Positions 13,076 to 64,000 of a DNA stretch of 64,000 nt are shown piece after piece. The notes beneath the pieces were generated by a model that saw nothing but the letters and a program-made list of their open reading frames with translations, did not search any database and was not told where the DNA came from. The stretch lies in contig NC_083587.1 of NCBI RefSeq assembly GCF_027579695.1, positions 8,478,501 through 8,542,500 on the forward strand, given 5' to 3'. How positions within the stretch are numbered: the first letter of the stretch is position 1; every line of letters starts with the position of its first letter. Source of the stretch: Neoarius graeffei (lineage: Eukaryota; Chordata; Actinopteri; Siluriformes; Ariidae). The position numbers and the translations under genes were made by a program.

Positions 13076-13511
13076 ATACACTTCCACAAACGTGTTGTGA
13101 AGGTCAGACTTTAATATATCCCTGTTTTTTAAATAAAACAGGGTGCCCACTCACACCTGATTGTCATCCCATTGAAAACACCTGACTCTAATTTTACCTT
13201 CAAATTAACTGCTAATCCTAGAGGTTCACATACTTTTGCCACTCACAGATGTGTAATATTGGATCACTTTCCTCAATAAATAAATGACCAAGTATAATAT
13301 TGTTGTCTCATTTGTTTAACTGGGTTCTCTTTATCTACTTTTAGGACTTGTGTGAAAATCTGATGATGTTTTAGGTCATATTTATGCAGAAATATAGAAA
13401 ATTTTAAAAGGTTCACAAACTTTCAAGCACCAGTGTATATAGTAAACCACAAGATATTGTTGTAGTTTTATTCATCATGCCCAGCTTAACTAGAAGTAGT
13501 GTGAAATGCAT

Positions 13512-13958
13512 GTCCTGTGGATCCCGAGTGGCACAGCAGAAAAGTGTCATCCTCCCCATCATCCAGATATTGCCACTTTCAAATCCTGATGACGCCACAA
13601 TCATCTGTGGTTGGGAGCTCAAGAGAGCAAAATTGTCTGGGCTCTCTGGGAGGGAGAGATGGCATGCTCTCTCTTCTCTGCCCTGTCAGTTACACTGGCC
13701 AGTCATGGGTGTGAGAGAGCACATTTAATAGGAAGTAAGTGGATTGGGCTTTCGTCCGAGTGTGCTTTGCAGCCCCCTGACATTGTATGAGTAAAACATG
13801 GTCAACTGGTGTTTCTTGTCTTGGAGGAAGCACATGATAGCCCTCCCTGGTTGGTAGCTGTTATGTGATACTGGAGAGGAGTCTGATGGGTGGGAATTGG
13901 CCATGGCTAAATTAGGGAGAAAATTGGGGAGAAATCGGGGGGGGCAATGCCCTGTCAC
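13512..13958 (+). mobile_element. tRNA-derived SINE (left arm)
   Basis: Starts GGATCCCGAGTGGCACAGCA, the classic tRNA-type head of fish SINEs with its A-box, and ends with the familiar GGCCATGGCTAAATTAGGGA then GAAATCGGGG tail. The body includes the GGGAGGGAGAGATGGCATGC segment seen in related fish SINEs. The copy in the right arm is at about 63440-63887 and differs by a 6-bp indel and several substitutions. Confidence 0.75.
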
Positions 13959-14315
13959 AGCAAACACATAATATAGGATAATGTTAGACCTCCCCATATT
14001 ACAGAAACACTGGGGGCGGCATTATAATACCTTCAGTGCAATATAACCAGCTGGCTGGAAAGAAGTTAGTTGAACACGCACATGCAGTGTGTCTGAACCA
14101 AGCGAAGTTGTTAATTGGATAATGCAGATGTCAATCAAACCCATCAACCATTATAAAAATCAATTGCAACACATTTGCTTTATTTCAGGAGCATATGTGA
14201 TGGTTATATTATCAAGCAATAACAGTTTTAGTATTTTTATGGAATTCAATAATTCCACAAGAGTCATACCATGGAGAACTTATCTTTTTAATTATGTTAA
14301 ATTTTAGCTCCTTAA
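13959..14315. other. Non-coding intron sequence
   Basis: AT-rich sequence between the SINE and the THAP element inside the presumed PRDM9-like intron. No exon or repeat recognised. Confidence 0.5.
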
Positions 14316-14987
14316 AGTGCATATCACGGGTAAATTCAGGAGCAAGATCAATGTAATTCTCCTATTTTATATTAAACTTTGGTCAAATATCTATAACATT
14401 CTGCATTCTCTTAAATTTTTTTACCTTGCGCAATACCAGAAAAATTCAGTTGAAATCAAGCCATTTGAGGCAAGTCGGTCTGCCTCTGGAAAAACTTGAC
14501 ATTTGAATTTCCCGGCAAACACTGATTTTCGTGATGTCGCGTGCGGAACGCCTCCCTCTGAATCCTACATCAGCGCTGGTTTATGAGAAAACGACCTGGT
14601 GGTTTTCTGCAAATTTCTTCAACGTTATCACGTAATTATTAAAATGGTTAATAGATGTATCGTAGGAGGGTGTAGCAACACCAATCATGATGGGATTAGT
14701 ACTTATCGTTTCCCAAAAGACTGGACAATGAGAGAGAAATGGGAGCGCTTGGTCTACACAGGCTGTGCACTTAAACCGTGCAAGCGCTCGCAGCCTACTG
14801 ACGCTTCCGCAGGTGACGTCACGAATCTGGCTCCAGACTCCCTTGGGATTTTTCCAGACGCATTTTGTTATTTGATTTTTTTCTGCTGTCGACAGATGGT
14901 CTTGTGCAAAATTACCCTTCTGGATGAATGTGTAAAGGGACATACTTTTCATATATAAAATAAATAAATTGGTCCAGGATATGCACT
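14316..14987 (+). mobile_element. Kolobok-like element reduced to a THAP exon (left arm)
   Basis: The 10-bp terminal inverted repeats (AGTGCATATC) are flanked on both sides by TTAA (14312-14315 and 14988-14991). TTAA duplication plus a THAP-type DNA-binding domain fits the Kolobok superfamily, whose transposases carry THAP domains. At 672 bp it lacks any catalytic domain, so it is a deletion derivative. It sits in the intron between the PRDM9-like SET and zinc-finger exons. Confidence 0.72.
14644..14958 (+). pseudogene. THAP domain, N-terminal half (left arm)
   Basis: The frame starts MVNRCIVGGCSN, giving the first two zinc-binding cysteines with the usual spacing, followed by STYRFPKDW and REKWERLV, which match the THAP fold's FP and W positions. 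The second half of a C2CH finger (SxxCSxHF) is missing; instead the frame runs into unrelated residues and stops. The start at 14644 is preferred over an earlier ATG because THAP domains begin at the protein N-terminus just before the first cysteine. Without the second Cys-His pair it cannot fold as a normal THAP finger. Confidence 0.7.
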
Positions 14988-15867
14988 TTAAACTCTTGCA
15001 GCTGAAGAACTTCAACATGTTAAGGAACAAATAGTGTCTGATGAATTAACGAACAATTAAACACATGGAGGTTTGGTTGCTTTACTACTACAAATCACAC
15101 AGTGGCATTCTTCAAATACTGCAGTAAGGAAATTCCTACTGCTGCAGACCTACTTGAATGCCATCTGAACCGATGCAGTGTGTCCCTTTTTTTTTTTATA
15201 CGCCTACATTTAAATTAAATGACTATTGTTATATGTCTTAATTTATGGATGTTGGCTTGCTTTCATCATTTACATTAATATGAATCATGGGGCTTCACAA
15301 AATCCCACAAAACTTAATTTCATGAAATTAGTGTGTAATTGAAATTAATAAGTGTTTTTAAACTTGACAACCTAATCCATATAAAAAAATCCAGATAGAA
15401 AATACATATTTGCTTGTGTAAATGCTACTAGAAACTATTTGCAAATAAATCTATCCATATCCAGTTTGATAAGGCCCATTTTTGGATCTTTCAGAACCTT
15501 GAGTGTGAGGGCTGAATTTCCTTCTCAATCCTGGATGAGATGTAAATAAGGCATTGCCATTACCTAGACTTGACATGATGTCGAACAGGAACCAACAACT
15601 CCCCTTTGGTCGCTCAGACCCATGGGGCTATGGCCAATGCTGTGCATAGCTGCTGTTCCAGGACCTTATTGAATCTCCCAGTATTCCAAGCTAGAGGCTG
15701 CTATATCTTAGTACGCAACCTTTTGTTTTTGTCTCCGTCTTAATTCATGTAGAATCTTGATTAAGTTTCAGTAAAAACACTCCTTACATTGGGTTAGTGT
15801 TGTTATATTTTACAATCTTGTTGCATTTCATGTTCAATTTGTTATTGTTGTCCTTTCATTTCTCCAG
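14988..15867. other. Intron sequence before the zinc-finger exon
   Basis: AT-rich, with a T-run near 15188. No exon or repeat recognised. The last 20 bases form the pyrimidine-rich acceptor of the zinc-finger exon. Confidence 0.6.
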
Positions 15868-62397: not shown

Positions 62398-63074
62398 AGT
62401 GCATATCCTGGACCAATTTATTTATTTTATATATGAAAAGTATGTCCCTTTACACATTCATCCAGAAGGGTAATTTTGCACAAGACCATCTGTTGACAGC
62501 AGAAAAAAAATCAAATAACAAAATGCGTCTGGAAAAATCCCAAGGGAGTCTGGAGCCAGATTCGTGACGTCACCTGCGGAAGCGTCAGTAGGCTGCGAGC
62601 GCTTGCACGGTTTAAGTGCACAGCCTGTGTAGACCAAGCGCTCCCATTTCTCTCTCATTGTCCAGTCTTTTGGGAAACGATAAGTACTAATCCCATCATG
62701 ATTGGTGTTGCTACACCCTCCTACGATACATCTATTAACCATTTTAATAATTACGTGATAACGTTGAAGAAATTTGCAGAAAACCACCAGGTCGTTTTCT
62801 CATAAACAAACCAGCGCTGATGTAGGATTCAGAGGGAGGCGTTCCGCACGCGACATCACGAAAATCAGTGTTTGCCGGGAAATTCAAATGTCAAGTTTTT
62901 CCAGAGGCAGACCGACTTGCCTCAAATGGCTTGATTTCAACTGAATTTTTCTGGTATTGCGCAAGGTAAAAAAATTTAAGAGAATGCAGAATGTTATAGA
63001 TATTTGACCAAAGTTTAATATAAAATAGGAGAATTACATTGATCTTGCTCCTGAATTTACCCGTGATATGCACT
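62398..63074 (-). mobile_element. Kolobok-like element reduced to a THAP exon (right arm)
   Basis: AGTGCATATC ends flanked by TTAA (62394-62397 and 63075-63078). 677 bp, a few bases longer than the left copy. Confidence 0.72.
62458..62742 (-). pseudogene. THAP domain, N-terminal half (right arm)
   Basis: Starts MVNRCIVGGCSN and keeps YRFPKDW and REKWERLV, like the left copy. A small difference in an A/T run changes the C-terminal residues (ends LVQNYPSG). The second Cys-His pair is missing. Confidence 0.68.
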
Positions 63075-63439
63075 TTAAGGAGCTAAAATTTAACATAATT
63101 AAAAAGATAAGTTCTCCATGGTATGACTCTTGTGGAATTATTGAATTCCATAAAAATACTAAAACTGTTATTGCTTGATAATATAACCATCACATATGCT
63201 CCTGAAATAAAGCAAATGTATTGCAATTGATTTTTATAATGGTTGATGGGTTTGATTGACATCTGCATTATCCAATTAACAACTTCGCTTGGTTCAGACA
63301 CACTGCATGTGTGTGTTCAACTAACTTCTTTCCAGCCAGCTGGTTATATTGCACTGAAGGTATTATAATGCCGCCCCCAGTGTTTCTGTAATATGGGGAG
63401 GTCTAACATTATCCTATATTATGTGTTTGCTGTGACAGG

Positions 63440-63887
63440 GCATTGCCCCCCCCCCCCCCGATTTCTCCCCAATTTTCTCCCTAATTTAGCCATGGCCAAT
63501 TCCCACCCATCAGACTCCTCTCCAGTATCACATAACAGCTACCAACCAGGGAGGGCTATCATGTGCTTCCTCCAAGACAAGAAACACCAGTTGACCATGT
63601 TTTACTCATACAATGTCAGGGGGCTGCAAAGCACACTCAGACGAAAGCCCAATCCACTTACTTCCTATTAAATGTGCTCTCTCACACCCATGACTGGCCA
63701 GTGTAACTGACAGGGCAGAGAAGAGAGAGCATGCCATTTCTCCCTCCCAGAGAGCCCAGACAATTTTGCTCTCTTGAGCTCCCAACCACAGATGATTGTG
63801 GCGTCATCAGGACTTGAAAGTGGCAATATCTGGATGATGGGGAGGATGACTGGGACAACACTTTTCTGCTGTGCCACTCGGGATCCA
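63440..63887 (-). mobile_element. tRNA-derived SINE (right arm)
   Basis: Mirror of 13512-13958, with a 6-bp insertion (in the CTGGGACAACAC region) and several substitutions relative to it. Confidence 0.75.
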
Positions 63888-63969
63888 CAGGACATGCATT
63901 TCACACTACTTCTAGTTAATCTGGGCATGATGAATAAAACTACAACAATATCTTGTGGTTTACTATATA

Positions 63970-64000
63970 CACTGGTGCTTGAAAGTTTGTGAACCTTTTA
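63970..64000 (+). mobile_element. Tc1-like terminal repeat cut by the window edge
   Basis: CACTGGTGCTTGAAAGTTTG after a TA is the mirrored right terminus of the element at 11142-13435. It shows that the palindrome continues past this window. Confidence 0.8.

Follow-up and report, generated by a model that had tools for sequence, protein, structure and literature searches.

A probable large palindrome with a different zinc-finger array in each arm, within an amplified PRDM9-like gene family of Neoarius graeffei

Introduction

Ampliconic palindromes of mammalian sex chromosomes have large arms around a short spacer, carry a germline-type gene in each arm and exchange sequence between copies. 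Here we describe a PRDM9-like locus of the catfish Neoarius graeffei, located in a 64,000-bp stretch of contig NC_083587.1 (hereafter C20, 70.3 Mb) at C20:8478501-8542500, which will be called the window. The locus contains an inverted repeat that is, in all likelihood, a real palindrome and larger than first described. Near-identical inverted arms, a short spacer and sequence exchange are all found here, as in the ampliconic palindromes. Unlike those, this palindrome lies within an array of a multi-chromosome gene family, the exchange reaches other units and the repeat exon differs between the arms. The palindrome itself belongs to a known class; it is the setting, a very large PRDM9-type family with fast-evolving arrays and no detected KRAB domain, that is of specialist interest.

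The closest described genes are those of the PRDM9 family. According to the passages of PMC5519329 used here, the DNA-binding residues of the zinc fingers evolve fast if and only if a complete PRDM9 is present, with one possible exception, and both KRAB and SSXRD are inferred to be required for directing recombination; its Table 1 gives 8 PRDM9 genes for channel catfish. Similarly, the consulted parts of PMC8892340 report unusually fast zinc-finger evolution only in species with a complete PRDM9, and describe siluriform PRDM9 as putatively without KRAB and with its tyrosines kept. Three tyrosines of PRDM9 are given as catalytic in the portion of PMC11703093 considered. That KRAB-less PRDM9-alpha has been amplified in catfishes is known from the literature: the parts of PMC11600626 drawn upon report that PRDM9-alpha is extensively amplified, above all in Siluriformes, a group with no aKRAB, and list 34 candidates for one Clarias species.

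As far as those same parts of PMC5519329 and PMC11600626 describe them, the KRAB-less PRDM9-alpha genes of Siluriformes and Characiformes resemble the genes studied here in their PRDM9-type SET exons, one long terminal zinc-finger exon, KRAB and SSXRD undetected (here by weak tests), and multiple copies. Unlike in those sets, two SET exons of the present family are each present in at least 150 copies, and its clusters lie mostly towards contig ends, partly as inverted pairs. Also, diversity at the DNA-contact positions is 0.37-0.67 per array here versus 0.158-0.331 in the SET-only rows of Table 1 of PMC5519329.

Two further fish systems are comparable. In the case of salmonids, the considered portion of PMC11703093 reports 6 to 14 Prdm9 paralogues per genome, some of them in tandem. 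The Prdm9 alpha-1 a/b tandem pairs are, like the genes of this locus, adjacent fish duplicates whose history, in the view of the authors of that paper, is blurred by ectopic recombination and gene conversion; they differ in that there are 6 to 14 copies, that a and b are often in the same orientation and that a full-length copy is kept, and the words ‘palindrom’ and ‘inverted’ are absent from the main text of that paper. In the case of zebrafish, the FiNZ genes form clusters of hundreds of fast-evolving zinc-finger genes. These, however, have another N-terminal domain, lie nearly all on one chromosome arm, and are presented in the used part of PMC10547256 with no occurrence of SET or PRDM. The full-text literature searched yielded neither a palindromic PRDM9 locus nor a case with 100 or more copies, in a search in which no query joined PRDM9 with palindromes and from which subscription papers were mostly absent.

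Results and discussion

Extent and identity of the arms

Self-comparison of the window gave inverted matches over 13405-64000, with the centre at 39158-39213. The match spanning the centre was 17.8 kb long (8.9 kb per arm) at 99.5% identity, and the other inverted pieces measured 6.7 kb (99.5%), 1.7 kb (99.3%) and 4.5 + 3.8 kb (about 97.6%). This confirms an inverted repeat whose length and identity are far beyond chance. A spacer of exactly 56 bases separates the end of the left arm at 39157 from the start of the right arm at 39214. The claim of the first-pass annotation, an inverted repeat of at least 25 kb per arm with a 56-bp spacer, is thus borne out by the self-comparison and by the exact arm ends. 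Its outer limits of 13405-64000 hold in the sense that the mirror is present there; as true limits they fail, being set by the right edge of the window, and the mirror continues on both sides.

The mirror was traced into flanking sequence, which covered 200 kb on the right side of the window and 16 kb on its left side. Positions 1-7959 pair inversely with window-equivalent positions 77641-69688, beyond the right edge. The left arm (P1L, plus strand) occupies 1..39157 of the window and goes on at high identity for about 7.7 kb to its left; the right arm (P1R, minus strand) occupies 39214..64000 and goes on at high identity to about window-equivalent 88,944. In window coordinates the high-identity arms therefore span about -7,719 to 39,157 and 39,214 to about 88,944, about 47-50 kb each.

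Outside the zinc-finger array, 142 mismatches were counted in 44,429 aligned bases (0.32%), together with 56 gap openings. For this figure 17619-21046 was added back, as the chained alignment of the arms had skipped 17199-21871, and some kb-scale stretches of the arms stayed unaligned. Mismatches amounted to 0-0.9% per kb in the aligned inner part, with none at all in 25001-26000 and likewise in 28001-29000. Two 1-kb bins with the zinc-finger array, however, reached 5.0% and 7.1%, partly from units out of register. The earlier description of the arms as nearly identical is consequently right outside the fingers, but not for the zinc-finger array, where finger number also differs, nor for the unaligned kb-scale stretches.

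Centre of the palindrome and its second copy

The whole structure is repeated in direct orientation 204-210 kb downstream on C20, with its centre about 209 kb away. This second copy (P2) differs from the palindrome of the window (P1) by 24 mismatches in 79,140 aligned bases (0.03%) and by several indels: relative to P1, it carries an insertion of 5.3 kb whose 477-bp ends are identical, has gained about 0.5 kb elsewhere and has lost about 0.1 kb. The insertion, which is not in the window's copy, appears to be a young insertion of long terminal repeat (LTR) type. The 56-bp spacer and the junction are base for base the same in P1 and P2. No N was found in 288,931 bases, from C20:8462501 through the readable end of P2. 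The right arm of P2 stops at an N stretch just beyond the zinc-finger exon, and its SET exon 3 was not among the 150 matches listed for that exon. P2 may be a tandem duplicate, but it may also be the other haplotype or a duplication from the assembly; as the other haplotype, it would still mean that both haplotypes have the junction.

The central sequence also occurs in two unbroken copies on C20 (L006 and L008), which share 96% identity and stay co-linear for about 850 bases past the break. The palindrome diverges from them after ATAAAGCA, followed by two filler bases and re-entry 54 bases earlier in reverse complement. In terms of the spacer (39158..39213), bases 1-54 prolong the left arm as in the unbroken copies and the last two (TG) are filler. 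Since the two unbroken copies show the sequence that was interrupted, the centre looks like the anatomy of a fold-back junction. Among the matches listed, only two copies of the whole centre at 99-100% were present, both on C20.

A locus on C14 was considered as a very old palindrome, as its match to the whole centre reached 83% in one orientation and 79% in the other. Alignment revealed another junction and this candidate was rejected. The locus (L005, C14:16672031-16672628) consists of a repeat element in inverted orientation, with arms of about 700 bp that are about 81% alike; being an inverted repeat-element pair with a different junction, it gives no date for the palindrome.

Between P1 and P2, a looser second mirror axis was observed on C20, between P1R and the left arm of P2: blocks at window-equivalent 81.6-121.9 kb are 94-99% identical to the reverse complement of blocks at 166-200 kb. 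A direct repeat of about 2.9 kb (74%) also lies between the two palindromes, at window-equivalent 153257-156134 and 157154-160044.

Mosaic ancestry of the arms

The arms were compared with the next unit to the left, on the strand of the right arm (P0R). In a segment with SET exon 1, P1R and P0R showed 0 differences in 885 positions, whereas P1L differed from P0R at 12 of 885. Near the centre the order was another one, with 3 differences in 1,747 between P1L and P1R, 12 in 1,798 between P1L and P0R and 10 in 1,754 between P1R and P0R.

The same was seen when differences from P0R were counted in each arm along a 14-kb stretch of P0R from C20:8368001. Over the first 1.8 kb, P1L had 18 and P1R 22 differences, 17 of them common to both. 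Over the next 7.4 kb, P1L had 8 versus 30 in P1R. The following 1.9 kb gave 10 in P1L versus 1 in P1R, and the final 2.2 kb covered by P1L gave 27 versus 1. Along P0R, the arms thus appear first as sisters, then P1L is closest to P0R, and then P1R. A patchwork of this kind is the trace of ectopic gene conversion or crossing-over between units.

Two consequences follow. P1R is identical to P0R at SET exon 1 and P1L is not; two alleles of a single locus are therefore not enough to explain the arms. And because the arms are mosaic relative to P0R, their identity is unusable as an age. The duplication had been called recent relative to transposon decay. Fairly recent it does seem to be, but high identity and shared decay do not serve as a clean clock in mosaic arms.

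Origin of the palindrome

Altogether, we regard it as probable that the structure is a genuine, fairly recent palindromic segmental duplication, made by fold-back with later ectopic exchange within an amplified PRDM9-like array. In this scheme, a break on the downstream side of one unit would have been healed by fold-back, either through sister-chromatid fusion or through template switching, which would have given two inverted, convergent copies of the unit. Non-allelic exchange with the units nearby, occurring repeatedly, would then have replaced parts of the arms, so that the distal right arm is now like the neighbour. The flanks would stay alike, whereas units of the 84-bp finger repeats would be gained, lost and converted, resulting in a different DNA-binding array in each arm. 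The palindrome would in this way be a product of the turnover that diversifies the PRDM9-like family, and probably also its substrate.

Several points weigh against this explanation. Beyond the high-identity arms the mirror goes on in broken pieces; the bins between -11 and -16 kb show 1.3-1.4% mismatches, and at window-equivalent 105,154-121,872 there are blocks that are 94-98% identical between the right arm and the left side of P2, and no long match farther out. Mirrored homology beyond 47-kb arms at 1.3-2.3% mismatches is unlike the product of one recent fold-back, and fold-back therefore needs later exchange. No microhomology was seen at the junction, and the search for the centre scored 40 of 3,538 first-look candidates. 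P2, only 0.03% different and ending at N, may not be an independent locus, but instead the other haplotype set in tandem, or else a duplication that arose in assembly. Finally, the mosaic was read against P0R as sole neighbour, in four sampled stretches.

The same mirrored order past the arms would be expected if convergent, pre-existing paralogues had been joined by a deletion and homogenised by gene conversion, without any fold-back. Exchange between units is evident, and convergent neighbours are common in the family: adjacent exon-1 pairs less than 400 kb apart (n=110, among the matches listed) comprised 63 direct, 21 convergent and 26 divergent ones. We nevertheless consider this origin unlikely. 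It demands that the two ends of the deletion, each in its own unit, fell at the same homologous point to within 56 bases, which is improbable, while fold-back yields that directly.

Less likely still is an assembly artefact, be it a head-to-head join of both haplotypes of a single locus (the main alternative of the first-pass annotation) or a fold-back read built into the contig: the arm divergence of 0.32% is inside the range of fish heterozygosity and the right arm of P2 ends at an N stretch, which may mark a region that is difficult to assemble, yet P1 and P2 share the junction to the base while carrying different indels, the distal segment of the right arm but not of the left is identical to P0R, the homology of the right arm to the left arm of P2 ends about 82 kb from the centre (for P1L this end is inferred), a fold-back read predicts identical arms rather than 0.32% difference and different zinc-finger arrays, and the 288,931 bases are free of N. 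With a junction common to P1 and P2 and arms that are not simple alleles, a real palindrome appears the better reading than a haplotype join.

The PRDM9-like gene in each arm

Each arm carries a PRDM9-like gene, and the two genes are convergent on the centre of the palindrome. SET exon 1 lies outside the window in both cases, at C20:8456784-8457068 (plus strand) for the left arm and at C20:8585973-8586257 (minus strand) for the right arm; PRDM9 was the best solved-structure match of this exon (E 3e-28). In the left arm, a putative SET exon 2 at 10450..10517 (plus strand) is preceded by AG and followed by GT, and was found as a weak tblastn match (E 0.78) of a human PRDM9 probe. SET exon 3 follows at 10688..10866 (plus strand), again preceded by AG, with its end inferred at the GT of 10867; its best structure was 4c1q of PRDM9 (E 4e-18). 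A PRDM9-type PR/SET domain is therefore present, as the translations of both exon 1 and exon 3 match PRDM9 structures best. The spacing from SET exon 1 to exon 2 is 32-40 kb. The zinc-finger exon of the left arm, preceded by AG, runs on the plus strand from 15868 to 17381, where the first in-frame stop is reached, and encodes 15 tandem fingers.

The tyrosine of the GPY motif, which we take to be one of the three catalytic tyrosines, is a cysteine in the palindrome's copies, which thus lack the complete set of catalytic tyrosines of a complete PRDM9. Exon 3 keeps two tyrosines (ILYRCC, LVWYEE). To place this substitution, 22 copies of exon 1 were used, namely 20 hand-picked out of 150 listed, leaning to the less similar ones, plus the two arms. 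At this position 13 of them have Tyr, 8 have Cys (both arms included) and 1 has Asp, proportions that are those of the sample and not of the family.

Profile searches for KRAB (PF01352) and SSXRD (PF09514) found 0 of 27 and 0 of 17 candidates genome-wide, which is a weak test as the same searches matched no control genome. Likewise, the KRAB or SSXRD part of the human PRDM9 probe had no tblastn match in 280 kb around the locus. In the gene layout, one zinc-finger array stands at the end, after the SET exons, and no KRAB was detected by these weak tests. Assignment to PRDM9-beta, suggested by the cysteine at GPY, was rejected in view of the Tyr in 13 of 22 sampled members and of the single long array, both of which instead point, in the light of PMC11600626, to a gene of PRDM9-alpha type. 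In this sense, the proposal that the palindrome surrounds a rapidly evolving meiotic gene holds as regards a PRDM9-like gene, but not as regards a single meiotic gene: each is one of at least 150 copies, with Cys at GPY and in-frame stops.

Zinc-finger arrays

The arrays consist of 84-bp repeats. The array of P1L (16110..17618, plus strand) has 18 units, the final 3 with an in-frame stop, so that 15 tandem fingers precede the first stop; that of P1R (60187..61275, minus strand) has 13 units of another finger set, 11 of them ahead of the first stop. A three-finger block is present twice in P1L, once in P0R and not at all in P1R; therefore units have been gained or lost since the common ancestor. 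The arrays of the left and right arms of P2 repeat those of P1L and P1R. Seven other sampled copies all had different arrays (the sample comprised 8 loci out of 40 listed, from 244 candidates).

For ten distinct arrays, the share of diversity at the DNA-contact positions was calculated for two sets of positions, as the passages of PMC5519329 used here do not state the positions. It amounted to 0.475-0.672 at positions -1, 2, 3 and 6 and to 0.373-0.672 at positions -1, 3 and 6. In Table 1 of that source, SET-only genes range over 0.158-0.331 and complete genes over 0.331-1.0 (one NA), and one partial SSXRD-SET gene reaches 0.524. All ten arrays are thus above the SET-only rows with both position sets, in a comparison of values; the paper's own significance test is the rank among a genome's zinc-finger genes, and other zinc-finger genes score high in some fish, so that the 0.538 of Salmo salar ranks 9th of 510. 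Overall, diversity in the ten arrays is concentrated at the DNA-contact positions, as published for complete PRDM9.

An amplified gene family

Searches of the assembly (2.34 Gb in 38 contigs) found at least 150 copies of SET exon 1 (150 scored of 273 candidates) and at least 150 of SET exon 3 (150 scored of 264 candidates); among the matches listed, 148 and 149, respectively, had no internal stop. The Cys-type exon 1 used as query had full-length 100% matches at 13 places, the query included, among the matches listed. Relative to contig ends, 149 places of exon 1 could be positioned, with 36 within 1 Mb, 92 within 5 Mb and 127 within 10.5 Mb. The array of the window is itself towards one end of the 70-Mb contig C20. 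Clusters of exon 1 also occur away from contig ends, for example near 11 Mb on C27 and near 14 Mb on C11.

Further convergent neighbours were noted at C23:60503493 (plus) and 60588900 (minus), 85 kb apart, and at C18:299915 (plus) and 406907 (minus), 107 kb apart. These pairs on C23 and C18 may be additional palindromes.

Selection on exon 1 was estimated in the 22 copies described above. The ratio of non-synonymous to synonymous substitution rates (dN/dS) was 0.32; a bootstrap over codons, with 60 random pairs in each replicate, gave an interval of 0.20-0.53. On average, the sampled SET exon thus appears to be under purifying selection.

Possible functions of the family and of the arm genes

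One explanation for these features is that the family is a germline repertoire of transposon repressors, like KRAB- or FiNZ-zinc-finger genes, amplified under pressure from young retroelements, and not a recombination system. This concerns function and is compatible with a real palindrome. In zebrafish, large, clustered and fast-evolving zinc-finger families with a transposon-repressor role have been described, as far as the used part of PMC10547256 goes, and they provide a precedent. The young LTR-type insertion of P2, with its two identical 477-bp ends, fits as well, and so does the failure of the weak tests to detect KRAB and SSXRD, thought necessary for hotspot activity. On the other hand, the average purifying selection on the sampled SET exon speaks against it, as does the GPY tyrosine kept in 13 of the 22 hand-picked copies, which suggests methyl-transferase activity in some members. 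We consider a repressor function quite possible, though with somewhat less than an even chance.

A similar standing, conceivable but on balance rather doubted, is given to the two palindrome genes being functionless, decaying copies. The cysteine at GPY, the in-frame stops near the end of both arrays and the 32-40 kb between SET exons 1 and 2 would all be expected of decay. However, the SET exons and 11-15 fingers are still open, and the Cys-type exon 1 is common, with identical full-length sequence at the 13 places mentioned.

More generally, we tentatively propose, as an idea that may well be wrong, that a KRAB-less PRDM9-type family of at least 150 genes evolves new DNA-binding arrays at the pace of a hotspot-setting PRDM9, and that the engine for this would be palindromes and ectopic exchange towards chromosome ends, with SET copied faithfully and fingers reshuffled. 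The puzzle is that of a family in which weak tests detected no KRAB or SSXRD and which yet has a finger diversity in the range of complete PRDM9. Complete genes may be hidden in the genome, another force such as an arms race with transposons may leave the same signature, or KRAB may sometimes be dispensable. Should such arrays guide recombination, they would break the published rule by which fingers evolve fast only where PRDM9 is complete. In this respect the palindrome offers a natural experiment, with copies that are 99.7% identical in the aligned bases outside the finger array and that encode different DNA-binding arrays.

Other features of the window

Tc1-like and DDE_Tnp_4 transposase fragments are present in the window. 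In addition, the left arm contains two open frames with matches to the THAP domain, at 14587-14958 (Pfam E 2e-5) and at 36612-36908 (Pfam E 6e-10).

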